DNA of 64,000 bases, taken from Prevotella sp. (GTDB lineage Bacteria > Bacteroidota > Bacteroidia > Bacteroidales > Bacteroidaceae). Shown in pieces: positions 54,077-64,000 of the stretch. How positions within the stretch are numbered: position 1 is the first letter of the stretch; every line of letters starts with the position of its first letter. A program made the position numbers and the translations under genes. Location of the stretch: the NCBI GenBank assembly GCA_017470055.1, contig JAFUFD010000088.1, positions 1-64,000 of the forward strand. Reading direction: 5' to 3'. A model generated the notes under the pieces. That model was given only the letters and a program-made list of their open reading frames with translations. It made no database searches and was not told the DNA's origin.

Positions 54077-55246
54077 ATGATGAGAAGTATGAAACGGAAG
54101 ATATATGAAGGGGTAGTGCTTATACTGTCCGTGTTATTAATGGCCTGTGGTGGTAAGAGTCCTGCAGGTGGAGTCAATGAGGGTTCTTTTACAGGAGACT
54201 CTATAAGTTTGATTCGTCCGCAGTATGCCAAAGGGTTTACTGTGAAATACTTGGAGAATGGTGTTCGTCTGGTGGATGTGGAGGATCCGCAGAAAGATGA
54301 GGATAAGATGCCTGTGAGTTATCAGTTCGCTTTGGTGACGAAGGGTAGTGAGGCAGAGATACCAGAGGGCTACACCAAGGTGGAGGTACCTGTAGAGCGT
54401 ACCATTGTGATGACAATGCTGCAACTCTCCAACTTTACCGCACTTGACGCACATGATATTGTCAAGGGTATCACAGGAACGAAGAACCTGTATAACAAGG
54501 ATATCAAGAAACGGGTAAAGGATGGCGATATCGTGAAGATAGGTATGGAGGGTAATTTCGATACCGAGTTGATACTTGCCGCCAATCCAGAACTGATTTT
54601 CATCTCTCCTTTCAAGCGTGGTGGCTATGAGGCGATCAAGGAGACGGGTATTACCCTTGTCCCCCATTTGGGGTATAAGGAACTCGACCCGTTAGGGCAA
54701 GCCGAGTGGGTGAAGTTCGTGGGTATGTTCTTAGGAAAGGAGAAGGAGGCCAATGACTGCTTTAAAGGTATTGAGCAACGATATAACGATGCGAAGGCTC
54801 TTGCCGCCAAGGCGGTATCTCGTCCCACCGTGTTTAGTGGTGAGATGCATGGTGGCAACTGGTATGCGGTAGGTGGTAAGAACTTCCTCGCCCAGTTGTT
54901 CCGTGACGCTGGTGCCGACTATATCGTGAAGAATGACGATACAGGTGGCTCCAATATTGAGTTTGAGCAGATGTATGCTATGGCGGCGAATGCTGACTAC
55001 TGGCGTATCCTGAACAGTTATCCGGATGAGTTCTCGTATGATGCGCTGAAAGCATCGGAGCCTCGCAATGAATTGTTCAAGGCTTTCAAGGAAAAGCATG
55101 TCATCTATTGCAATATGAAGCAGACGGCCTATTATGAGTCTACACCTGTCGAGCCTGATATGGTGTTGAAAGACCTGCTTGCTATCTTCCATCCGGAGTT
55201 GGTTGGGAAAGACTATCAACCGAAATATTATCAGTTGCTGCGATGA
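54077..55246 (+). CDS. Periplasmic-binding lipoprotein of an iron/cobalamin-type ABC transporter
   Basis: 389 aa of the PF01497-type binding proteins for siderophores, haem or cobalamin. The N-terminus MKRKIYEGVVLILSVLLMACGG has the lipobox LMAC, so it is tethered to a membrane; the annotated ATG 54077 gives MMRSMKRK and an in-frame ATG three codons later is equally possible. Two lobes are seen: VERTIVMTMLQLSNFTALD...PELIFISPFKRGGYE and RPTVFSGEMHGGNWYAVGGKNFLAQLFRDAGADY. Ligand not deducible. It overlaps the permease by 4 bp. Confidence 0.88.
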   Translation: MMRSMKRKIYEGVVLILSVLLMACGGKSPAGGVNEGSFTGDSISLIRPQYAKGFTVKYLENGVRLVDVEDPQKDEDKMPVSYQFALVTKGSEAEIPEGYTKVEVPVERTIVMTMLQLSNFTALDAHDIVKGITGTKNLYNKDIKKRVKDGDIVKIGMEGNFDTELILAANPELIFISPFKRGGYEAIKETGITLVPHLGYKELDPLGQAEWVKFVGMFLGKEKEANDCFKGIEQRYNDAKALAAKAVSRPTVFSGEMHGGNWYAVGGKNFLAQLFRDAGADYIVKNDDTGGSNIEFEQMYAMAANADYWRILNSYPDEFSYDALKASEPRNELFKAFKEKHVIYCNMKQTAYYESTPVEPDMVLKDLLAIFHPELVGKDYQPKYYQLLR

Positions 55247-56277
55247 GAAGCCACGTCGTCTCCTATCTGTTGCTGTTCTTGGGCATTGTCCTCTTGTTTG
55301 TGCTCAACCTGTTGTTAGGTACCGTCAAAATACCTGTTGGTGAGGTGGTGGCAACACTTATAGGTAGTCAGGAGGTATCGGAGATACATCGTAATATCAT
55401 CTGGAGTTCACGAGTGCCACAGGCATTGACGGCGATGGTGGCTGGTGCTGGTCTTGCGGTGAGTGGTCTACAGATGCAGACGGTTTTCCGCAACCCGCTT
55501 GCTGGTCCTTCTGTATTGGGTATCTCCAATGGTGCCTCCTTAGGTGTCGCTTGTGTCGTCTTGATGTCTGGCTCATTAGGCGGTGTAGCCTTGAGCCGTT
55601 TAGGGTATCTGGGGGATGTCGCCATGTCGATAGCCGCCATCATCGGTTCTCTTGCTGTGATGGCTTTGATTCTCTACGTGTCACAGAAAGTGAAAGGGAA
55701 TGTCACCTTATTAATAATAGGTGTGATGATAGGTTATCTCGCCACCGCCATCATTGGCGTATTGAAGTTCTTCTCCGCTGAGGAGGATATCAAGGCGTAT
55801 GTGGTGTGGGGGTTAGGTTCTTTCTCTCGTGTGTCAGGCAACCAGATGGTTCTCTTTGTCATTTTGATGGCAATCCTGTTGCCTTTGAGTATGCTGTTGG
55901 TGAAGACGATGAACCTGTTGCTTTTGGGAGATGGCTATGCCCGCAACTTAGGGTTGAACATCCGTCGTGCCCGTATGCTGGTCATCCTCTGCTCTGGTGT
56001 GCTGGTGGCTATTGTCACCGCCTATTGCGGACCGATTATGTTCATCGGACTTGCCGTGCCTCATCTTTGTCGTACTATCTTCAACAGTAGTGACCATCGT
56101 ATTCTGATGCCAGGCACCTTATTGGCTGGTGCCGCACTCGCCCTGTTATGTAACCTGATAGCCCGTATGCCTGGTTTCGAGGGAGCCTTGCCCGTCAATA
56201 GTGTTACGGCATTGGTGGGAGCCCCTGTTATTGCCAGTGTCCTGTTCCGTCGCAGGAAGGATGAGATGGGGGAGTAA
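55243..56277 (+). CDS. FecCD/BtuC-type ABC transporter permease
   Basis: 344 aa with about ten transmembrane helices (LLLFLGIVLLFVLNLLLGTV, LPLSMLLVKTMNLLLLGDG). Family blocks are SRVPQALTAMVAGAGLAVSG, QMQTVFRNPLAGPSVLGISNGASLG, GLGSFSRVSG, and FIGLAVPHLCRTIFNSSDHR. It moves iron-siderophore, haem or cobalamin through the inner membrane with the preceding binding protein. The expected ATP-binding gene does not follow. Its 3' end is duplicated at 59718-59746. Confidence 0.93.
   Translation: MRSHVVSYLLLFLGIVLLFVLNLLLGTVKIPVGEVVATLIGSQEVSEIHRNIIWSSRVPQALTAMVAGAGLAVSGLQMQTVFRNPLAGPSVLGISNGASLGVACVVLMSGSLGGVALSRLGYLGDVAMSIAAIIGSLAVMALILYVSQKVKGNVTLLIIGVMIGYLATAIIGVLKFFSAEEDIKAYVVWGLGSFSRVSGNQMVLFVILMAILLPLSMLLVKTMNLLLLGDGYARNLGLNIRRARMLVILCSGVLVAIVTAYCGPIMFIGLAVPHLCRTIFNSSDHRILMPGTLLAGAALALLCNLIARMPGFEGALPVNSVTALVGAPVIASVLFRRRKDEMGE
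56245..56273 (+). repeat. Permease 3' end, copy 1 of a 29-bp direct repeat
   Basis: The last 29 coding bases of the permease gene (encoding LFRRRKDEMGE) recur exactly at 59718-59746, 3473 bp downstream. Upstream of both copies the string CCCCTGT is also shared but at different spacing, which indicates a diverged longer duplication. Confidence 0.92.
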
Positions 56278-56297
56278 CTATATCTTATTTATTATAT

Positions 56298-56963
56298 ATG
56301 AAAGTGATTGTTTCACAAGAGATAGAGACCGTTTGTCCTGGGTTTGTCGGGGCATGTCTGGAGGCAGACGTGGTGAATACCCCATACTCACAAGGGTTAT
56401 GGGATGAGATTCATGCGTTATCGGAACGCTATCGCAAGGAATTGACGACCGAGAGCCTGAAAGAGATGAGTGGTATCGCTGCTACTCGCCGTGTCTATAA
56501 AGGATGTGGCAAGGATCCCTCTCGCTATCGTCCTGCCTCTGAGGCCTTGATTCGTCGGATGCTACAAGGAAAGGAACTCTACCAGATAGATACATTGGTC
56601 GACCTTATCAACCTTGCCTCTATTGCCTATGGTTACAGCATTGGTGGTTTCGATGCTGATAAGTTTGTGGGGGATACGCTGACTTTGGGAGTTGGTCGTG
56701 AGGGAGAACCTTATGAAGGTATCGGACGTGGCATCATCAATATCCATGGACTACCTGTCTATCGGGATGCAGAAGGTGGGGTAGGAACTCCCACCAGTGA
56801 CCATGAGCGTACGAAGATAGGCATCAATACCCGTCATCTCCTTGTCCTTATAAATGGTTATGATGGGGATGAGCAGCGTGTCACGGATAACGCCCGATTC
56901 ATCCAGCAACTCCTTCGCAAGTATTGCCAAAGTGACGGAGGCACTTTCTTCGTGTACCGTTGA
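56298..56963 (+). CDS. B3/B4 tRNA-binding-domain protein
   Basis: 221 aa resembling the B3/B4 domain of the phenylalanyl-tRNA synthetase beta subunit, found in stand-alone proteins. Typical blocks are SGIAATRRVYKGCGKDPSRYRPASEALIRR and LYQIDTLVDLINLASIAYGYSIGGFD. Related proteins may edit or bind aminoacyl-tRNA or D-aminoacyl groups; I do not claim a specific role. It starts 20 bp after the permease, where an ABC ATPase might be expected. The end is followed by the AraC promoter region. Confidence 0.85.
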   Translation: MKVIVSQEIETVCPGFVGACLEADVVNTPYSQGLWDEIHALSERYRKELTTESLKEMSGIAATRRVYKGCGKDPSRYRPASEALIRRMLQGKELYQIDTLVDLINLASIAYGYSIGGFDADKFVGDTLTLGVGREGEPYEGIGRGIINIHGLPVYRDAEGGVGTPTSDHERTKIGINTRHLLVLINGYDGDEQRVTDNARFIQQLLRKYCQSDGGTFFVYR

Positions 56964-56990
56964 CCAATATCATGAACATCATTATAAGCA

Positions 56991-57024
56991 GTTTCTGTAA
57001 AAATGCAAAGTGAATCCGTAAAAT
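56991..57024 (+). promoter_or_regulatory. Predicted AraC operator, site A (araC promoter)
   Basis: GTTTCTGTAA (56991-57000), 10 bp, TGAATCCGTAAAAT (57011-57024). The halves contain TCTGTAA and TCCGTAA 21 bp apart in direct orientation, the geometry of AraC-family sites. The same element is found at 60757-60790. Site A ends 28 bp upstream of the TAACTTTG box. Confidence 0.75.
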
Positions 57025-57052
57025 GTGCAACGGTAGTTTAATGTAAAATTTG

Positions 57053-57060
57053 TAACTTTG
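57053..57060 (+). promoter_or_regulatory. -7 box of the AraC-family gene
   Basis: TAACTTTG only 4 bp before the annotated start, so the transcript would be nearly leaderless, or translation starts at a later codon. No -33 box is seen; the operator-like site A takes its place. Confidence 0.6.
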
Positions 57061-57064
57061 CAAC

Positions 57065-57961
57065 ATGATTCAGAATATAGAGACAATTGAGCAGTACAAC
57101 AATTTGTTTGGCGTTGAGACCAAGCATCCTTTAGTGACGGTAGTGGAAGTGAGAGATTATGCTCCACATGCTGATGAACTGACACAGACAGTGAAATATG
57201 GACTCTATGCTTTGTTCTTGAAACAAGGTGTAGGCTGTCGCCTCCGCTATGGGCGTAAGCAGTACGACTACCAGTCTGGTAGTATTGTAACGATGGCTCC
57301 TGGTCAGGTGGTGGCAACTGAGTTTATTGAAGGGGAGCATAGTAGTTGGAAGGCATTGTTGTTTCATCCAGACTTATTATATGGCAGCCCTTTGGCAGAA
57401 CGTATTCGTGAATACTCCTTTTTTGGTTACGATCAGCATGAGGCTTTGCATGTGTCTGATGACGAACGTCGTACTATTGAGGATACTTTTCTGCATATTA
57501 GCGAAGAATTGGACCATGCCATTGATAAACATTCCTCACAGTTGCTGACAGTTTATATACAATTGGTTCTTGACTATTGTCTGCGTTTCTATGACCGTCA
57601 GTTCATCACTCGCCATAAGGTAAATTCATCCCTTATTAGCCGATTTGAAAAATTAGTGGACGACTACCTTCAGGACGATCAGTTGTTGATGGAAGGACAA
57701 CCAACAGTATCATGGTGTGCCAGTGAGTTGTGTCTTTCTGCTAATTATTTTGGTGACTTGGTGCGAAAGGAGTTAGGTAATACTGCCAAAGAATTCATCA
57801 CAAAGAAAATCATTGCAAAGGCGAAACAAGAGTTGCGAGGTACAGACACGCCTATTACGATAGTCAGCGAACGACTGGGTTTCAGTAGTGTGAGCCATTT
57901 TACTCGTCTGTTCAAAGCACATACAGGATATACACCGTCGAACTACAGAAGAAGTGCATAA
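57065..57961 (+). CDS. AraC-family transcriptional regulator
   Basis: 298 aa. The N-terminal two-thirds is a cupin-like sensor region (YGLYALFLKQGVGCRLRYGRKQYDYQSGSIVTM, beta-rich). The C-terminal AraC DNA-binding domain has two helix-turn-helix units: WCASELCLSANYFGDLVRKELG and PITIVSERLGFSSVSHFTRLFKAHTGYTPSNYRR. It probably binds the paired elements at its own promoter and at the SDR promoter. The next gene starts 4 bp after its stop. Base composition is lower in GC than the ilv and nqr genes, as in the two genes that follow. Confidence 0.93.
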   Translation: MIQNIETIEQYNNLFGVETKHPLVTVVEVRDYAPHADELTQTVKYGLYALFLKQGVGCRLRYGRKQYDYQSGSIVTMAPGQVVATEFIEGEHSSWKALLFHPDLLYGSPLAERIREYSFFGYDQHEALHVSDDERRTIEDTFLHISEELDHAIDKHSSQLLTVYIQLVLDYCLRFYDRQFITRHKVNSSLISRFEKLVDDYLQDDQLLMEGQPTVSWCASELCLSANYFGDLVRKELGNTAKEFITKKIIAKAKQELRGTDTPITIVSERLGFSSVSHFTRLFKAHTGYTPSNYRRSA

Positions 57962-57965
57962 TAGT

Positions 57966-58532
57966 ATGGTACGAAAATTCACAACACATCTGTTGGTGAC
58001 ATTATTATTGTTCATAACTGCCTGTTCAACAGAAGAGGCTCAGGCACAATCATCATCGAATATGGAAATTATCATTACTGTGGGTGGCAAGACTTTTACT
58101 GCCACTTTAGAAGACACAGAGACAGGACGAGCCTTTTACAACCGACTGCCTCTTACACTCAACATGTCAGAGTTGAATGGCAATGAAAAGTATTATTATC
58201 TTGATGAGGCATTACCAACAGCCTCACAATATTACAGCACAATTCATGCTGGTGATTTAATGCTATATGGTAATTCCTGTGTAGTCTTGTTCTATGGTGA
58301 GGCGGGAGGTTATAGTTATACACGACTCGGAAAACTGAATAAAACAGAAGGACTTGTATCAGCAGTAGGCATTAGTAGTGTTAGTGTCACTTTCTCAAAG
58401 GTAACGAGTGACCTCAGTGAAACTGTGCTTACAAAGAAGGACAAAAAAATCTATGTACTTAATGGTTCCATGTTAAAGGGAGAGCCATCAAAAGGAATAT
58501 TTATTAAAAATGGAAATAAAGTTGTAAAATGA
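57966..58532 (+). CDS. Cyclophilin-like-fold lipoprotein
   Basis: 188 aa from the ATG at 57966 (a GTG 12 bp earlier overlaps araC). The lipobox is FITACST, so it is a lipoprotein. The body matches the small cyclophilin-like fold family: IIITVGGKTFTATLEDTETG, AFYNRLPLTLNMSELNGNEKYYYLD, IHAGDLMLYGNSCVVLFYG, SYTRLGKLNKTEGL. No catalytic role is established for this family. It sits 4 bp after araC and overlaps the hydrolase gene by 4 bp, so the three form an operon. Confidence 0.85.
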   Translation: MVRKFTTHLLVTLLLFITACSTEEAQAQSSSNMEIIITVGGKTFTATLEDTETGRAFYNRLPLTLNMSELNGNEKYYYLDEALPTASQYYSTIHAGDLMLYGNSCVVLFYGEAGGYSYTRLGKLNKTEGLVSAVGISSVSVTFSKVTSDLSETVLTKKDKKIYVLNGSMLKGEPSKGIFIKNGNKVVK

Positions 58533-59656
58533 ATAAACTTATATACACAGCATTACTGTTGGGTGGAATGCTAACAGGATGTACACAGAAAGCAACAAAT
58601 GAAAAAGGAGATAAAGAAATGATGAAGTTGGAATTAACACAGGAGTGGGACAAAGTTTTCCCGTTGAGTGAGAAAGTCAACCACAAGAAAGTAACGTTTG
58701 AGACCCAATACGGTCTGATATTGGCAGCAGATCTCTATACACCAAAAGTCGCACAAGGAAAGTTGCCCGCCATCGCTGTGAGCGGTCCTTTTGGTGCTAC
58801 AAAAGAGCAATCGAGCGGACTCTATGCGATGAAAATGGCTGAGCGTGGTTTCGTGGCTCTCGCTTTTGATCCTTCATACACAGGAGAGAGTAGTGGTGAG
58901 CCTCGTCGTACGGCCTCACCAGATATCAATACAGAAGACTTTATGGCTGCTGTTGACTTTCTGTCAAAGCAGGATGATGTGGATGCAGACAAGATAGGAA
59001 TCATTGGCATCTGTGGATGGGGTGGTATCGCTCTCAACGCTGCCGCCGCAGACACTCGCATCAAAGCGACCGTTGCAAGCACCATGTATGATATGACTCG
59101 TGTGAGTGGTAATAATTACAATGATGCTCTCGATGTTGAAGAGGCTCGTCATACTGCTCGTGAAACTCTCTCTAAACAGCGTCTCACTGACCCGATGGCA
59201 ATGGCTGGTGGCGTGGTAGATACCGTACCTTATCAAGCACCTCAGTTTATCAAGGACTACCATGATTATTATAAGACCCCGCGCGGCTATCACATTCGCA
59301 GTGGTAACAGTAATGACGGATGGCGAACAATAGGTACCCAGGCTTATGCGAATACCCGTTTCCTTTATTATATAAATGAGATTCGCTCAGCGGTTCTCGT
59401 TATGCATGGTGCCGATGCCCACTCTCGTTACTTTGGAGAAAGCGCCTACCATTATATGGTTGAAGGGAAGGCAGAGGGTTATCATTTCGTAGGAAATCCC
59501 AATCCTAATCCACAAAATAAAGAACTGTTGATTATCCCTGATGCGTCTCATTGTGACCTCTACGATGGTGGATGGACAGAAACTGCAGGAAAGGGTGAAC
59601 CCAAGAATCTTATTCCTTGGGATAAACTTGCTGATTTTTTCAAAAAGAACTTGTAA
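58529..59656 (+). CDS. Lipoprotein alpha/beta hydrolase with Cys nucleophile
   Basis: 375 aa. Lipobox MLTGC (LLLGGMLTGCTQKA) anchors it in the envelope. The alpha/beta hydrolase core shows AVSGPFGATKEQSSG, FVALAFDPSYTGESSGEPR, and the elbow IGICGWGGIAL, in which Cys replaces the usual Ser, as in dienelactone hydrolases and YcjY-like proteins. The acid and histidine are probably in VMHGADAHSRYFG and IPDASHCDLYDG. An esterase or lactonase role is plausible; the substrate is unknown. It overlaps the preceding lipoprotein gene by 4 bp and is the last gene of the araC operon. Confidence 0.88.
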   Translation: MNKLIYTALLLGGMLTGCTQKATNEKGDKEMMKLELTQEWDKVFPLSEKVNHKKVTFETQYGLILAADLYTPKVAQGKLPAIAVSGPFGATKEQSSGLYAMKMAERGFVALAFDPSYTGESSGEPRRTASPDINTEDFMAAVDFLSKQDDVDADKIGIIGICGWGGIALNAAAADTRIKATVASTMYDMTRVSGNNYNDALDVEEARHTARETLSKQRLTDPMAMAGGVVDTVPYQAPQFIKDYHDYYKTPRGYHIRSGNSNDGWRTIGTQAYANTRFLYYINEIRSAVLVMHGADAHSRYFGESAYHYMVEGKAEGYHFVGNPNPNPQNKELLIIPDASHCDLYDGGWTETAGKGEPKNLIPWDKLADFFKKNL

Positions 59657-59717
59657 TTATAGGAATCTTATAGTCGCATAATTCTTAAAAATCAGTTACC
59701 GACTGACCCCTGTACTC

Positions 59718-59746
59718 TTCCGTCGCAGGAAGGATGAGATGGGGGA
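59718..59746 (+). repeat. Permease 3' end, copy 2 of the 29-bp repeat
   Basis: Exact 29-bp copy of 56245-56273, in frame with a diverged upstream stretch reading LTPVLFRRRKDEMGE before the stop is lost. It is a decayed tail of a permease gene, just before a terminator. Confidence 0.9.
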
Positions 59747-59750
59747 ATTA

Positions 59751-59789
59751 AAAAGGATAGCATCTTTATTACGTAGATGCCATCCTTTT
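59751..59789. terminator. Bidirectional terminator
   Basis: AAAAGGAT-A-GCATCT (59751-59765) pairs with AGATGC-C-ATCCTTTT (59775-59789) with one mismatch and a 9-nt loop. It can serve both the plus hydrolase gene and the minus gene at 59792. Confidence 0.82.
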
Positions 59790-59791
59790 AA

Positions 59792-60184
59792 TTATAGTAT
59801 ATTTGCTACCAAATCGGCTTGCTGGTCCTCATAGAACTTAGGTCCAGTGATTGCCGAATAACTGAAGTCTGTGAAGCGGAACAGTTGCAGTGCGAGGAAA
59901 TGCCGGTCTCTTGCCAATGCTATCTCCAGTCTCAGGTGTCCTACGGGTACACTGACTAATTGTCCTTTCTTCACCTCAGTTTCCAGTTTGTCGGCAGGTG
60001 CATTCAATAATTGTACCAGTCGGCTTTCTGCGTCTGGTGTGTATTCCTGTACTGTGAGGTCGACAACAGCATTGGTTGGTGTATAAATCACAGTCTTGGA
60101 AAGTCCAAGGAATCCCTTTTTGATGTTTATATGTTGGTGTTGGGAGAGGGCAGAGGCCATCTCCATATTATTTAAACTTGCCAT
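59792..60184 (-). CDS. Small hypothetical protein
   Basis: 130 aa, no signal peptide or membrane segment. It is beta-rich with SKTVIYTPTNAVVDLTVQEYTPDAE and GQLVSVPVGHLRLEIALARDRHFLALQLFRFTDF. An internal Met (residue 7) could be the start. The family is not recognised. It ends at a bidirectional terminator and lies between the two parts of the proposed AraC regulon, on the opposite strand. Confidence 0.6.
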   Translation of the reverse strand: MASLNNMEMASALSQHQHINIKKGFLGLSKTVIYTPTNAVVDLTVQEYTPDAESRLVQLLNAPADKLETEVKKGQLVSVPVGHLRLEIALARDRHFLALQLFRFTDFSYSAITGPKFYEDQQADLVANIL

Positions 60185-60243
60185 AATATATTGCTTTTAA
60201 TTGTTTCTTTTAATAATAATCTCTGAGGAAAAGAAACAGGCAA

Positions 60244-60642
60244 CTAACGAAGAAGATGCCTCAATGCTATTATATAGTAATGGCATGAGACAGTCAATGG
60301 ATGAGGGGCAGACTCCAGTCTACACCTTCCATCAGATATATGAAGTTTTGAGGATGAATAATGTTTTTGTGTATCTTGTGCTACTCGCACAGTTGTGCGA
60401 TGTGGCTGTTGCCTGAGACTCTGGGGAGGTTGTATGCGTTGAGGACGTGGGTTACATACCCGATACACTTCAAGCCCGTCGCTTAACACTGCCTCAGATG
60501 CCTGATGTTCCAACGCATTGTTGTCATACAACATGTCGTATGACTGTCTGTCCTCCAAACGGATAGAATCAGCATGGATATCTGTCTGCCAGCCAACGAC
60601 AGACAGGAGAATGAGGAATAATATCTTTGTCATGCGATTCAT
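60244..60642 (-). CDS. Small putative secreted protein
   Basis: 132 aa (or 129 from the Met at residue 4). An N-terminal signal peptide (MTKILFLILLSVVGWQTDIHA) is followed by SIRLEDRQSYDMLYDNNALE and a Pro/Arg/Gln-rich, compositionally odd tail that may be a degraded or frameshifted C-terminus. A full consensus promoter lies upstream, which supports expression. No family recognised. Confidence 0.5.
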   Translation of the reverse strand: MNRMTKILFLILLSVVGWQTDIHADSIRLEDRQSYDMLYDNNALEHQASEAVLSDGLEVYRVCNPRPQRIQPPQSLRQQPHRTTVRVAQDTQKHYSSSKLHISDGRCRLESAPHPLTVSCHYYIIALRHLLR

Positions 60643-60673
60643 GTGACAAGTGACGATGTTATGATTAGGCTTG

Positions 60674-60704
60674 CAAAGTTACTAATTTTATTTTAATGTA
60701 CAAA
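60674..60704 (-). promoter_or_regulatory. Promoter of the small secreted-protein gene
   Basis: On the minus strand TTTG (60704-60701), 19 bp, TAACTTTG (60681-60674), 31 bp before the start codon. It is divergent from the SDR operon. Confidence 0.75.
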
Positions 60705-60756
60705 ATGATGGAGAATTTTACACAAAAGAGAAGAGTCTTTTAGTGGACTAATGGTT

Positions 60757-60790
60757 GTTTCTGTAATTTTGGTAAATGAATCCGTAAAAT
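60757..60790 (+). promoter_or_regulatory. Predicted AraC operator, site B (SDR promoter)
   Basis: GTTTCTGTAA (60757-60766), 10 bp, TGAATCCGTAAAAT (60777-60790), identical to site A in both conserved blocks and in spacing. It ends 28 bp before the TATCTTTG box, also identical to site A. Confidence 0.75.
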
Positions 60791-60818
60791 TTATACAAAA
60801 AGATTGGGGAATTCTTCG

Positions 60819-60826
60819 TATCTTTG
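60819..60826 (+). promoter_or_regulatory. -7 box of the SDR operon
   Basis: TATCTTTG, 26 bp before the SDR start. No -33 TTTG at 19-21 bp upstream; the operator-like site B lies 28 bp upstream instead. Confidence 0.7.
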
Positions 60827-60852
60827 CACTATAAAACTATAATAATACAAAA

Positions 60853-61692
60853 ATGGCAAAGAAAGAAGTATCAGTTCTGATTGGTGCAGGAAGTATCGGA
60901 CAGGCAATTATCCGCCGAGTATCGGCAGGTAAGCACGTTGTGCTTGCCGACTATAACATAGAGAACGCTGAGCGGACAGCCAAGATATTGGAAGATGCAG
61001 GTTTTGAGTGTTCGACGATTAAGTGTGACCTCGGCTCTAAGGAGGACATCCTAAGATTGGTGGGGTTCGCCACCAGTAAGGGGGAGGTAAAGTACTTGGT
61101 GAATGCCGCAGGCGTATCGCCCTCACAGGCTCCAGTAGCAGAGATTCTGCGTGTGGATCTCTATGGGACGAGTGTGCTGATGGAGGAGTTTGGCAAAGTG
61201 ATTGCCGAGGGAGGTAGTGGTGTCATTATCTCGTCGCAGAGTGGTCACCGCCTGCCCGCACTGCCACAAGAGGAGAACGATGCACTTGCCATGACACCGT
61301 GTGATGAACTATTGGAAATCCCTTTCATCAAGGCGATTGACGACACGCTGAAGGCATATCAGTACTCAAAGCGCTGCAACGTTTTGAGAGTGATGTATGA
61401 GGCAACCCGCTGGGGGCGTCGTGGTGCAACCATCAACAGCATCAGCCCAGGCATCATTATCACCCCGCTTGCCAATGACGAGTTACATGGTCCACGCAAA
61501 GAGGGATATCTGAAGATGATAGAGGGAATGCCTGCCCGTCGTGCCGGCACCCCCGATGAGGTGGGCGACCTTGCCGAGTTCCTGATGTCCTCTCGTGGTC
61601 GTTTCATCAGTGGTGCAGACCTGCTCATTGATGGTGGATGTACCGCCAGTTACTGGTATGGCGACCTGCAATATCTTAAAGCAACACATTAA
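60853..61692 (+). CDS. Short-chain dehydrogenase/reductase
   Basis: 279 aa, NAD(P)-dependent oxidoreductase. The nucleotide motif is VLIGAGSIGQA (GxGxxG) rather than the classic TGxxxGIG. Other SDR parts are VNAAGVSP (NAAG), ISSQSGH (Ser region), AYQYSKRCN (YxxxK), NSISPGIIITPL (PG motif), and SGADLLIDGGC at the end. An unusual insert (residues about 140-165, rich in Glu/Asp) precedes the catalytic Tyr. The substrate is not deducible. It is the first gene of the operon under site B and is followed by 3 bp and the cupin gene. Confidence 0.9.
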   Translation: MAKKEVSVLIGAGSIGQAIIRRVSAGKHVVLADYNIENAERTAKILEDAGFECSTIKCDLGSKEDILRLVGFATSKGEVKYLVNAAGVSPSQAPVAEILRVDLYGTSVLMEEFGKVIAEGGSGVIISSQSGHRLPALPQEENDALAMTPCDELLEIPFIKAIDDTLKAYQYSKRCNVLRVMYEATRWGRRGATINSISPGIIITPLANDELHGPRKEGYLKMIEGMPARRAGTPDEVGDLAEFLMSSRGRFISGADLLIDGGCTASYWYGDLQYLKATH

Positions 61693-61695
61693 GAA

Positions 61696-62868
61696 ATGAG
61701 AAAGATTCTAATAACCATCATCACTTTCATAACGACAATAAATATGAATGCACAGGAAGTAGATTTTAACGTATGGCCTAAAGGGGAGTTGAACACTGCC
61801 TACGCCCAGTATTTTATCGGTAACAGTTATCTGGCTCCACTCGATGCACAGAACGGCGGACCAGTGAATGTGACCTTTGAGCCACGTTGCCGCAATAACT
61901 GGCACATCCACCATAAGTCGGTGCAGGTGCTTATCTGTGTCGCTGGTCACGGCTGGTATGTGGAGGAGGGTAAGGCTCCTGTTGCGATGCGTCCAGGTTC
62001 TGTAGTGGCAATCCCAGCCGAGGCAAAGCATTGGCATGGTGCGGCAAAGGACTCGTGGTTTCAGCATCTGACCTACATGACAAAGGTTGAGGAAGGTTCT
62101 TCCACCACATGGTTGGAACCTGTCGTTGACGAGGAATACGACAAACTGCCAGCCAGTCAGCAAATGCTAAATACTACAGACCCGGAGTTTACGGAACGTT
62201 TCGAGGCATTTGCCTACGATGAAGTTGTCAATCAGGTAAAAGCAAAACTTGATGACCATACCCGTCATATATGTTATCTGGCAACACTGCTTGGTTGTCA
62301 GGGTATCGATGAATATCGTGAGATACTGCCTAAAGCCCTTGATAATGGGGTAACACCCGTCGAGGTAAAGGAAATTGTCTATCAGGCTACTGCCTATCTT
62401 GGGTTAGGTCGTGTACGTCCGTTCCTGACTGCCACCAATGAGGTCCTCGGTCTGCGTGGCATCGCTCTGCCGCTGCCCTTGCAGGCACAGACTACGCAGG
62501 AGAACCGTCGTGAGGCTGGTACTCAGGCGCAGGTCGACTGTTTTGGTGAGGGGATGCGTGACTTCTGGAAGTCGGGTCCTGAGGACAGCCGTCATATCAA
62601 CTACTGGCTTGCCGACAATTGCTTTGGCGACTACTACACCCGTAAGGGACTGGACTTGAAGTACCGTGAACTCATCACCTTCTGCTTCCTTGCAGCCCAG
62701 GGCGGTTGCGAGCCCCAGTTGAAGGGTCACATCGCAGGTAATTACCATGTCGGCAATGACAAGGATTTCCTCATCGCCGTTATCTCGTCAAACCTTCCCT
62801 TCATTGGCTATCCTCGTACGCTGAATGCTCTGAACTGCATCCGTGAGGTAGAGGCTGTAAAAAAATAA
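61696..62868 (+). CDS. Secreted cupin plus double carboxymuconolactone decarboxylase-like protein
   Basis: 390 aa with a signal peptide (MRKILITIITFITTINMNA, cleavage near AQE). A cupin domain (about 25-140) has the metal motif WHIHHK and PGSVVAIPAEAKHWHG. Two carboxymuconolactone-decarboxylase-like domains follow: DHTRHICYLATLLGCQG and KYRELITFCFLAAQGGCEPQLKGHI, with the Cys and His expected of this AhpD-like fold. Its neighbours are an SDR and an iron alcohol dehydrogenase. A peroxide, aldehyde or lactone detoxification role is possible; the reaction is not known. Confidence 0.88.
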   Translation: MRKILITIITFITTINMNAQEVDFNVWPKGELNTAYAQYFIGNSYLAPLDAQNGGPVNVTFEPRCRNNWHIHHKSVQVLICVAGHGWYVEEGKAPVAMRPGSVVAIPAEAKHWHGAAKDSWFQHLTYMTKVEEGSSTTWLEPVVDEEYDKLPASQQMLNTTDPEFTERFEAFAYDEVVNQVKAKLDDHTRHICYLATLLGCQGIDEYREILPKALDNGVTPVEVKEIVYQATAYLGLGRVRPFLTATNEVLGLRGIALPLPLQAQTTQENRREAGTQAQVDCFGEGMRDFWKSGPEDSRHINYWLADNCFGDYYTRKGLDLKYRELITFCFLAAQGGCEPQLKGHIAGNYHVGNDKDFLIAVISSNLPFIGYPRTLNALNCIREVEAVKK

Positions 62869-62889
62869 TGATTTATTAAATAGTTAACT

Positions 62890-64000
62890 ATGCAGAATTT
62901 TGATTACATGACCCCGACTCGACTCATCTTTGGTAAGGAGTCGATTCAGAAACTGCCAGAGGTAATGCGTCCTCTTGGCAAACGTGTTTTGCTGACCTAC
63001 GGTGGTGGCAGCATTAAGAAGTTAGGTCTTTACGACCGAGTGAAGGAACTGCTTGCCGACTTCGAGATTCTCGAACTCTCAGGCATTCAGCCTAACCCGA
63101 AGTATGACCCCAGTGTTCTTGACGGTGTCCGCATCTGCAAGGAGCAACAGGTGGATGTCATTCTTGCTGTAGGTGGTGGTAGCGTGCTCGACTGCTCGAA
63201 GGCTATTGCCGCTGGTGCCAAATACGATGGTGATGTCTGGGATTTGATTACCTACAAGGTAAAGGCACAGGCAGCGTTGCCTATCGTAGATATCCTGACA
63301 CTTGCCGCTACTGGCTCGGAATATGATTGTGGAGGCGTAATCTCACGTACAGAGACCAATGATAAGATTGGTTACATGGATCCATTGCTCTTCCCTGTAT
63401 GCTCCATTCTCGATCCTGTCTATACGTTCAGTGTGTCGAAGAAACAGACTGCCGCTGGTTGTGCGGATGCGATGAACCACACCATGGAGCAGTATTTCGC
63501 AGCAGACACCACATTACTAAATGATGGCTTCTGTGAGTCGATGTTGAAGAGTCTGATGGTGAATGCCCGTAAGTGCTTAGACAATCCAGAGGATTATACC
63601 GCCCGTGCAGAGATGATGCTTTGTTGCACCTATGGCTGCAATGGCATCCTGTCGTTGGGTAACAGTCACAGTGGTTGGCCCTGCCATGGTATCGAGCATG
63701 CCCTGAGTGCCTATTATGACATCACACATGGTGAGGGACTCGCCATCATCACCCCACGTTGGATGCGCCATATCCTAAGTGACAAGACCATTGACCGTTT
63801 CGTGAAATATGGTATCAACGTATTTGGCATTGATGCCTCACTGCCTAAACAGGAGATCGCCGAGAAAGCCATTGATGCTACCTATGCGTTCTTCGAGAGC
63901 ATCCATATCCCGATGCATCTGCGTGAGGTCGGAATCGACGATAGCCGTATCGATGAGATGGCGCATCATATTGCTGTCAACGAAGGTCTGGAGAATGCCT
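62890..64000 (+). CDS. Iron-containing alcohol dehydrogenase (incomplete at window end)
   Basis: About 370 residues are visible and the frame is open to the edge; the family is about 385-390 aa, so little is missing. It is YqhD/BDH-like: MQNFDYMTPTRLIFGKESI, NADPH loop AVGGGSVLDCSKAIA, LAATGSEYDCGGV, and metal ligands Asp and His in GCADAMNHTMEQY, then HGIEHALSAYYDITHGEGLAI. Such enzymes reduce short aldehydes with NADPH. In E. coli the AraC-type activator YqhC controls yqhD; here an AraC gene shares an operator with this operon. It starts 21 bp after the cupin gene. Confidence 0.95.
   Translation, partial: MQNFDYMTPTRLIFGKESIQKLPEVMRPLGKRVLLTYGGGSIKKLGLYDRVKELLADFEILELSGIQPNPKYDPSVLDGVRICKEQQVDVILAVGGGSVLDCSKAIAAGAKYDGDVWDLITYKVKAQAALPIVDILTLAATGSEYDCGGVISRTETNDKIGYMDPLLFPVCSILDPVYTFSVSKKQTAAGCADAMNHTMEQYFAADTTLLNDGFCESMLKSLMVNARKCLDNPEDYTARAEMMLCCTYGCNGILSLGNSHSGWPCHGIEHALSAYYDITHGEGLAIITPRWMRHILSDKTIDRFVKYGINVFGIDASLPKQEIAEKAIDATYAFFESIHIPMHLREVGIDDSRIDEMAHHIAVNEGLENA

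Follow-up and report, generated by a model that had tools for sequence, protein, structure and literature searches.

In a window of 64,000 nucleotides of Prevotella sp. DNA (assembly GCA_017470055.1, contig JAFUFD010000088.1, positions 1 to 64,000, the whole stretch analysed here), the promoter of an AraC/XylS-type regulator gene, araC1, and that of an operon led by a gene for an SDR family oxidoreductase carry the same direct-repeat element, at the same distance from the -7 box of a promoter that has no -33 element. We consider it likely that such elements are class II operators for AraC-type activators, that araC1 is autoregulated while the SDR operon is likely served by a second regulator, AraC2, encoded just beyond the window, and that the sites belong to a shared carbonyl/redox regulon. 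The elements in the window are:

56991..57030, forward strand, araC1 operator: A boxes TCTGTAA (56994-57000) and TCCGTAA (57015-57021), B boxes TGCAA (57004-57008 and 57026-57030); defined by the block search and by conservation in two orthologous promoters
57053..57060, forward strand, TAACTTTG, the -7 box for araC1; the gap from the second A box is 31 bp, and TTTG is absent at -33
60757..60797, forward strand, SDR operon operator: A boxes TCTGTAA (60760-60766) and TCCGTAA (60781-60787), B boxes GGTA (60771-60774) and TATACA (60792-60797)
60819..60826, forward strand, TATCTTTG, the -7 box for the SDR operon; the gap from the second A box is 31 bp, and TTTG is absent at -33

Both promoters contain the bipartite block GTTTCTGTAA-N10-TGAATCCGTAAAAT (56991-57024 and 60757-60790) with 24 of 24 bases matching. 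In both, TCTGTAA and TCCGTAA start 21 bp apart, 28 bp separate the end of the block from the -7 box, and TTTG is absent at -33. With up to three mismatches allowed, the block was found at these two places only, in the window (none expected from 100 window shuffles) as well as in the whole genome (with one base trimmed from either end of the block). An earlier sequence-only reading of this DNA had described the element in the same terms, and all of its details hold. That reading had also noted that the 10-bp spacers differ, which they do. The spacers are not neutral filler: the second recognition box lies within them, and each block is followed directly on its 3' side by another box (57026-57030 for araC1, 60792-60797 for SDR). 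The bipartite block thus makes up most of a site about 37 bp long.

When the site was written in a looser form (TCHGTAA-N14-TCHGTAA-N31/30-TAnnTTTG), three more TCHGTAA-N14-TCHGTAA sites were seen on the same contig just beyond the window; the names flavodoxin and NTF2-like given below come from a reading of the translations and not from a family search.

contig 65365-65392, minus strand, site 5' of a flavodoxin gene
contig 65405-65432, site 5' of an NTF2-like gene
contig 68785-68812, site 5' of araC2, a second araC gene
contig 68855-69790, the araC2 gene

The distance from the second A box to TAnnTTTG is exactly 31 bp in four of the five contig sites and 30 bp at araC2. When the five promoters are aligned, four show TGGTAA or TGATAA following the first A box, and these four have TTTATACA or TTGGTATC following the second; araC1 is the sole promoter with TGCAA in both B-box places, and the SDR B boxes (GGTA/TATACA) are of the same type as those of the araC2 and NTF2 promoters. 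The consensus of 26 operators beside other AraC homologues is TCCGTAAAAnTGGTAGnTnAATCCGTAAAnTGTnTAC, and this, together with the constrained spacer, therefore points to a site of two half-sites of about 17 bp repeated at 21 bp. Each half-site would comprise an A box, TCYGTAA, followed about 10 bp (about one helical turn) on by a B box, and an AraC-type activator would bind each site as a dimer, the half-sites being arranged head to tail. Operators of AraC-type regulators have this form. In the genome itself the composite pattern gave four matches against none for the control at up to two mismatches, and five against two at up to three, the fifth being a repeat array, while the A-box repeat alone with two mismatches stayed at control level (140 matches against 176).

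The flavodoxin and NTF2-like operators stand back to back, 12 bp apart, between divergent genes (contig 65365-65432; 5365-5432 in locus L076), and in genome G162 araC2 itself occupies the NTF2 side of such a pair.

Both window promoters have the -7 part of the Bacteroidota -33/-7 promoter, TAnnTTTG, and not the -33 part. The offset of TTTG is 35 in 21 of 25 sites located without use of the -7 box, and 34 in one more (araC2); addition of six left-out sites (L083-L086), which had been judged chance-like from sequence and of which one has TTTG at the offset, brings the count to 22 of 31. A -33 TTTG (spacer 17-23) was seen in none of 39 distinct operator promoters, and a -33 TTG in two of them, where 2.8 and 7.5 were expected from spacer shuffles that also scramble the B-box part. 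For comparison, the window has 12 other TAnnTTTG sequences 5' of genes, and six of these have TTTG at -33. By arithmetic, the second B box falls at the -33 position. With TAnnTTTG set 31 bp beyond the second A box, the promoter-proximal half-site would reach the -33 place, and the bound activator would most likely give the contact normally made by the -33 element, as in class II activation. The fixed TTTG offset, the missing -33 element and the placing of the second B box all support this, and the counts bear out the earlier proposal of an activator that replaces the -33 contact. Class II activation by an AraC-type protein is in our opinion well supported, activation itself being what we infer from the promoter layout. 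Sigma-70-type promoters were rejected as an explanation, the sigma-70 scan being uninformative for this phylum, and so was an RNA element, for which no Rfam match at the gathering score was found in 55000-64000.

The genes that follow the two window promoters form two putative operons:

57065..57961, forward strand, araC1, AraC/XylS-type regulator with HTH_18 and a weak AraC_binding match; second recognition helix SSVSH
57966..58532, forward strand, cyclophilin-like protein gene (PF18050), 4-bp gap after araC1
58529..59656, forward strand, alpha/beta hydrolase gene, overlapping the cyclophilin-like gene, in the same putative operon as araC1
60853..61692, forward strand, SDR family oxidoreductase gene, leading its putative operon
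61696..62868, forward strand, cupin and carboxymuconolactone-decarboxylase-like (cupin-CMD) gene
62890..64000, forward strand, iron-type alcohol dehydrogenase (Fe-ADH) gene, continuing to 64053 beyond the window

The C-terminal domain of AraC1, with two helix-turn-helix (HTH) motifs, matches HTH_18 at 73 bits (cut-off 33.6) and aligns in sequence to AraC (2k9s) and MarA (1bl0), SoxS also being among the matches; the N-terminal AraC_binding match, at 23.7 bits, is barely over its cut-off of 21.1. The cyclophilin-like gene is probably co-transcribed with araC1, and the operator would make the araC1/cyclophilin-like/hydrolase operon autoregulated.

Orthologues of AraC1 are rare. Among 299 genomes of the genus only G127 has one (86%) besides our own genome, the next match being at 52%, and an additional orthologue was found in RUG11822 (L003; 84%). 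Both retain the upstream operator but have diverged between it and the -7 box, which gives good support for autoregulation of araC1. The sequence-only reading had predicted this for the araC gene at 57065 and had named orthologous promoters as the place to look for the element; autoregulation is on this ground well supported as a prediction. The rarity of AraC1 would also fit an inserted cassette. A 36-nt direct repeat (94%), at 56238-56273 (the end of a permease gene) and at 59711-59746, brackets a block of about 3.4 kb with a B3/4-domain gene and the araC1, cyclophilin-like and hydrolase genes, and this block may have been inserted as a unit; an uninterrupted version was not found in 10 relatives by a right-flank search.

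The assignment of regulators to sites depends on the two recognition helices. We assume, from work on AraC and MarA, that the first HTH contacts the A box and the second the B box. Across 68 aligned AraC homologues, the SxNYFGDL region around the first helix varies little among site-bearing members (SANYFGDL in AraC1, SPNYFGDL in AraC2), in line with the constant A boxes. The second helix is SSVSH in all three AraC1 orthologues and YPQH-like in 25 of 26 other site-bearing homologues. The B boxes follow the same division: TA occurs in at least one of the two expected B-box places at 25 of the 26 non-AraC1 sites and at none of the three AraC1 sites, and TGCAA stands in the downstream box of all three AraC1-type promoters and in both boxes of two. 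AraC1 and AraC2 would accordingly be alike in the first HTH, for the A box, and differ in the second, for the B box.

The distribution of the genes points the same way. In genome G162 the SDR operon (95%), the SDR operator, AraC2 (97%) and the flavodoxin operator are present, and a search with AraC1 at E 1e-50 (7 of 25 first-look candidates scored) matched AraC2 only and no AraC1. Conversely, G127 has AraC1 and a best SDR homologue of only 43%, and the genome of L003, which also has AraC1, gave no SDR match at E 1e-60. AraC1 and the SDR operon thus occur apart, which makes AraC2 the likelier activator of the latter. The claim of the sequence-only reading that AraC1 activates the SDR/cupin-CMD/alcohol dehydrogenase operon is not well supported by this comparison: the B boxes there are of araC2 type, the second helix of AraC1 is altered, and G162 keeps the SDR operator without an AraC1 match. 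Control of the SDR operon by AraC1 is doubtful, and most likely its paralogue AraC2 would be the regulator of this site.

Sites of this kind are spread widely in the relatives. The composite pattern, with up to two mismatches, is present in 125 of the 299 genus genomes (ours included), with 243 matches in total against 35 for a reversed-pattern control (hand-summed). From at least 24 places with zero mismatches outside our genome, 20 loci were examined, and three others, picked partly in the knowledge of a nearby AraC gene, were kept out of the neighbourhood count. A homologue of a regulon gene lies within 1.5 kb in 18 of the 20 (none near L145 and L155), and an AraC homologue in eight. The reference list comprised AraC1, AraC2, SDR, cupin-CMD, Fe-ADH, alpha/beta hydrolase, cyclophilin-like, flavodoxin, NTF2-like, aldo-keto reductase, amidohydrolase and two further proteins. 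Two of the 20 loci themselves supplied references, L149 the aldo-keto reductase and the amidohydrolase and L142 one protein; without L142, whose sole match is the reference taken from it, the count is 17 of 19. In the controls, regulon homologues were seen in seven of 19 windows of 3 kb taken at a distance in the same loci, because regulon genes cluster, and in three of 29 chance-pattern loci, which were mostly from other genera and only 3 kb long.

Beyond the genus, a strict site stands 5' of the AraC homologue in eight of 13 named relatives, namely the orthologue L003 and, with divergently oriented sites, a Chitinophagaceae metagenome-assembled genome (MAG), two Mucilaginibacter, Cnuella, a Bacteroidetes MAG, Leeuwenhoekiella and a Catalimonadaceae genome. 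The relatives other than L003 presumably belong to four different orders. Aldo-keto reductase homologues lie on the far side in three of the divergent-site relatives and in two of four class-level loci. Order-wide, the reported blocks have a match with up to two mismatches in 121 of 393 genomes; eight of these places outside our genome, chosen for one mismatch or a like spacer, were examined. Genomes G227, G157 and G058 have seven to nine operator matches each (up to two mismatches) and four to seven AraC1 homologues, a hint of repeated joint duplication of regulator and operator. The five matches in G169 are tandem-like repeats around GTAAAGTGGCACTTTG and are false positives, not operators.

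Several observations weigh against this model. Five of the 13 named relatives (L004, L005, L007, L013 and L015) lack a strict site, and the strict pattern with GGTA occurs in just six of 395 phylum genomes, ours included (seven matches, two of them ours, against one control match). At all 28 araC loci that encode paralogues of about 45-52% identity, a strict site was absent from the up to 400 bp of DNA 5' of the gene (L031 offered 44 bp only, and five loci were checked by coordinates and not by the open reading frame (ORF) list), and most of these loci encode the YPQH helix. Nine of the 23 paralogous araC genes kept in the ORF list sit close behind a gene on the same strand, and a degenerate site above the 99% null is found in 14 of 38 strict-site-less homologues of all kinds with enough upstream DNA. 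The rule that a site lies beside the regulator gene does not hold for every relative. As to the helices and boxes, L003, one of just three known AraC1 orthologues, has GGTA in its upstream spacer, the YPQH-type homologue L129 has TGCAA in the downstream box, and the second helix of L157 is QSPQS, though with TA boxes. At 24 SDR orthologue places in 19 further genomes no site was found in up to 300 bp upstream, mostly because the SDR gene lies inside an operon, so that the SDR operator is comparable with G162 only, and these two close species have similar core promoters throughout. The genomes of G162 and L003 are possibly incomplete.

Chance similarity of the two window sites, or a recent copying of one promoter, is hardly credible. 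Sites in this genome are few, as such an origin would have it, but the shuffle and reversed-pattern controls, the footprint kept in orthologues, and spacers and flanks that are unlike one another led us to reject it, in agreement with the earlier statement that the blocks are not simply a recent copy. We also regard it as improbable that the sites serve a repressor or an unrelated factor, such as a two-component regulator with an AraC-type output domain. Direct repeats are, in the available part of a comparative study, described for other regulator families too (PMC3870299), but the operator adjoins an AraC2-like gene in several orders, and the position of the site together with the missing -33 element fits activation.

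The two other alternatives share the class II part with the model preferred here, and their odds overlap with it. If AraC1 alone acted at both sites, autoregulating its gene and activating the SDR operon, the differences in the B boxes would be irrelevant. The identical A boxes and flanking bases, the identical spacing and the short distance of 3.8 kb between the sites agree with this, but the B boxes vary in step with the altered second helix, G162 has the SDR operator without an AraC1 match, and G127 and the L003 genome have AraC1 without a close SDR orthologue; we find it unlikely. More room must be given to cross-regulation, in which AraC1 and AraC2 would both bind all five sites by the shared A boxes and the B boxes would tune the strength. 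Site-bearing members do indeed differ little in their A boxes and around the first recognition helix. Against it, TGCAA has been kept downstream in each of the three orthologous promoters and in the two boxes of two of them, which suggests selection for separation, and cross-regulation is to us possible but on the unlikely side. Our preference therefore stays with separate regulators, AraC1 at its own promoter and AraC2 at the SDR site.

The likely targets are SDR, cupin-CMD and Fe-ADH, and in relatives also aldo-keto reductases and flavodoxins. The araC1 and SDR sites would thus be part of a regulon of carbonyl/redox enzymes over several Bacteroidota orders, probably for a response to reactive carbonyls or electrophiles, and as a guess the inducer may be reactive carbonyls or electrophiles themselves. 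It is tempting to go further, to a Bacteroidota-wide carbonyl/electrophile-stress regulon with AraC-type activators and -33-less promoters, in which paralogues are kept apart by a changing second HTH and B box against a fixed first HTH and A box; this wider proposal is tentative, and we would give it slightly less than an even chance. The fixed distance from site to -7 box, beside the likely regulator gene in several orders, offers a ready set of promoters for the question of -33 replacement, and the AraC1/AraC2 pair is a small testable case of duplicated regulators that diverge. In the open-access literature searched, no described regulator of this kind was found for Bacteroidota; the available part of PMC10434189 deals with fldA under low iron and holds nothing on these regulators.

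Fe-ADH has its best NCBIfam match, at 291 bits against a cut-off of 645, in PRK15138, which we take to be the YqhD model. At class II promoters of E. coli AraC and RhaS the half-site nearer the promoter adjoins or overlaps the upstream core element; the core promoter here is, in contrast, of the Bacteroidota -33/-7 type without a -33 TTTG. Direct repeats at a 21-bp periodicity have been described for AraC-type regulators, the Bacteroides group included, in a comparison of rhamnose regulons (PMC3870299). The predicted operator of Bacteroides RhaR in that study shares with the present sites the 21-bp direct repeat and the AraC-type regulator. As far as the available part of the study goes, its targets are rhamnose genes and not carbonyl/redox enzymes; here, how far the site lies from the -7 box and the absence of the -33 element were measured over many promoters. 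A functional parallel is E. coli YqhC, described in the available parts of two reports (PMC8249747, PMC5297802) as an AraC-type activator of yqhD and dkgA (aldehyde and aldo-keto reductases) in a glyoxal system. Fe-ADH and, in relatives, aldo-keto reductases are likewise among the likely targets here. By the domain test AraC1 is not YqhC, as AraC_N (PF06719), which we take to be the YqhC N-terminus, is not among its Pfam matches at E 0.001. AraC1 precedes the cyclophilin-like and hydrolase genes, with Fe-ADH about 5 kb off, and in relatives aldo-keto reductase homologues adjoin AraC homologues and sites. Compared with what is available on the YqhC system, the sites here number several and not one, the gene set takes in SDR, cupin-CMD, flavodoxin, cyclophilin-like and hydrolase genes, and the promoters are of a different class.

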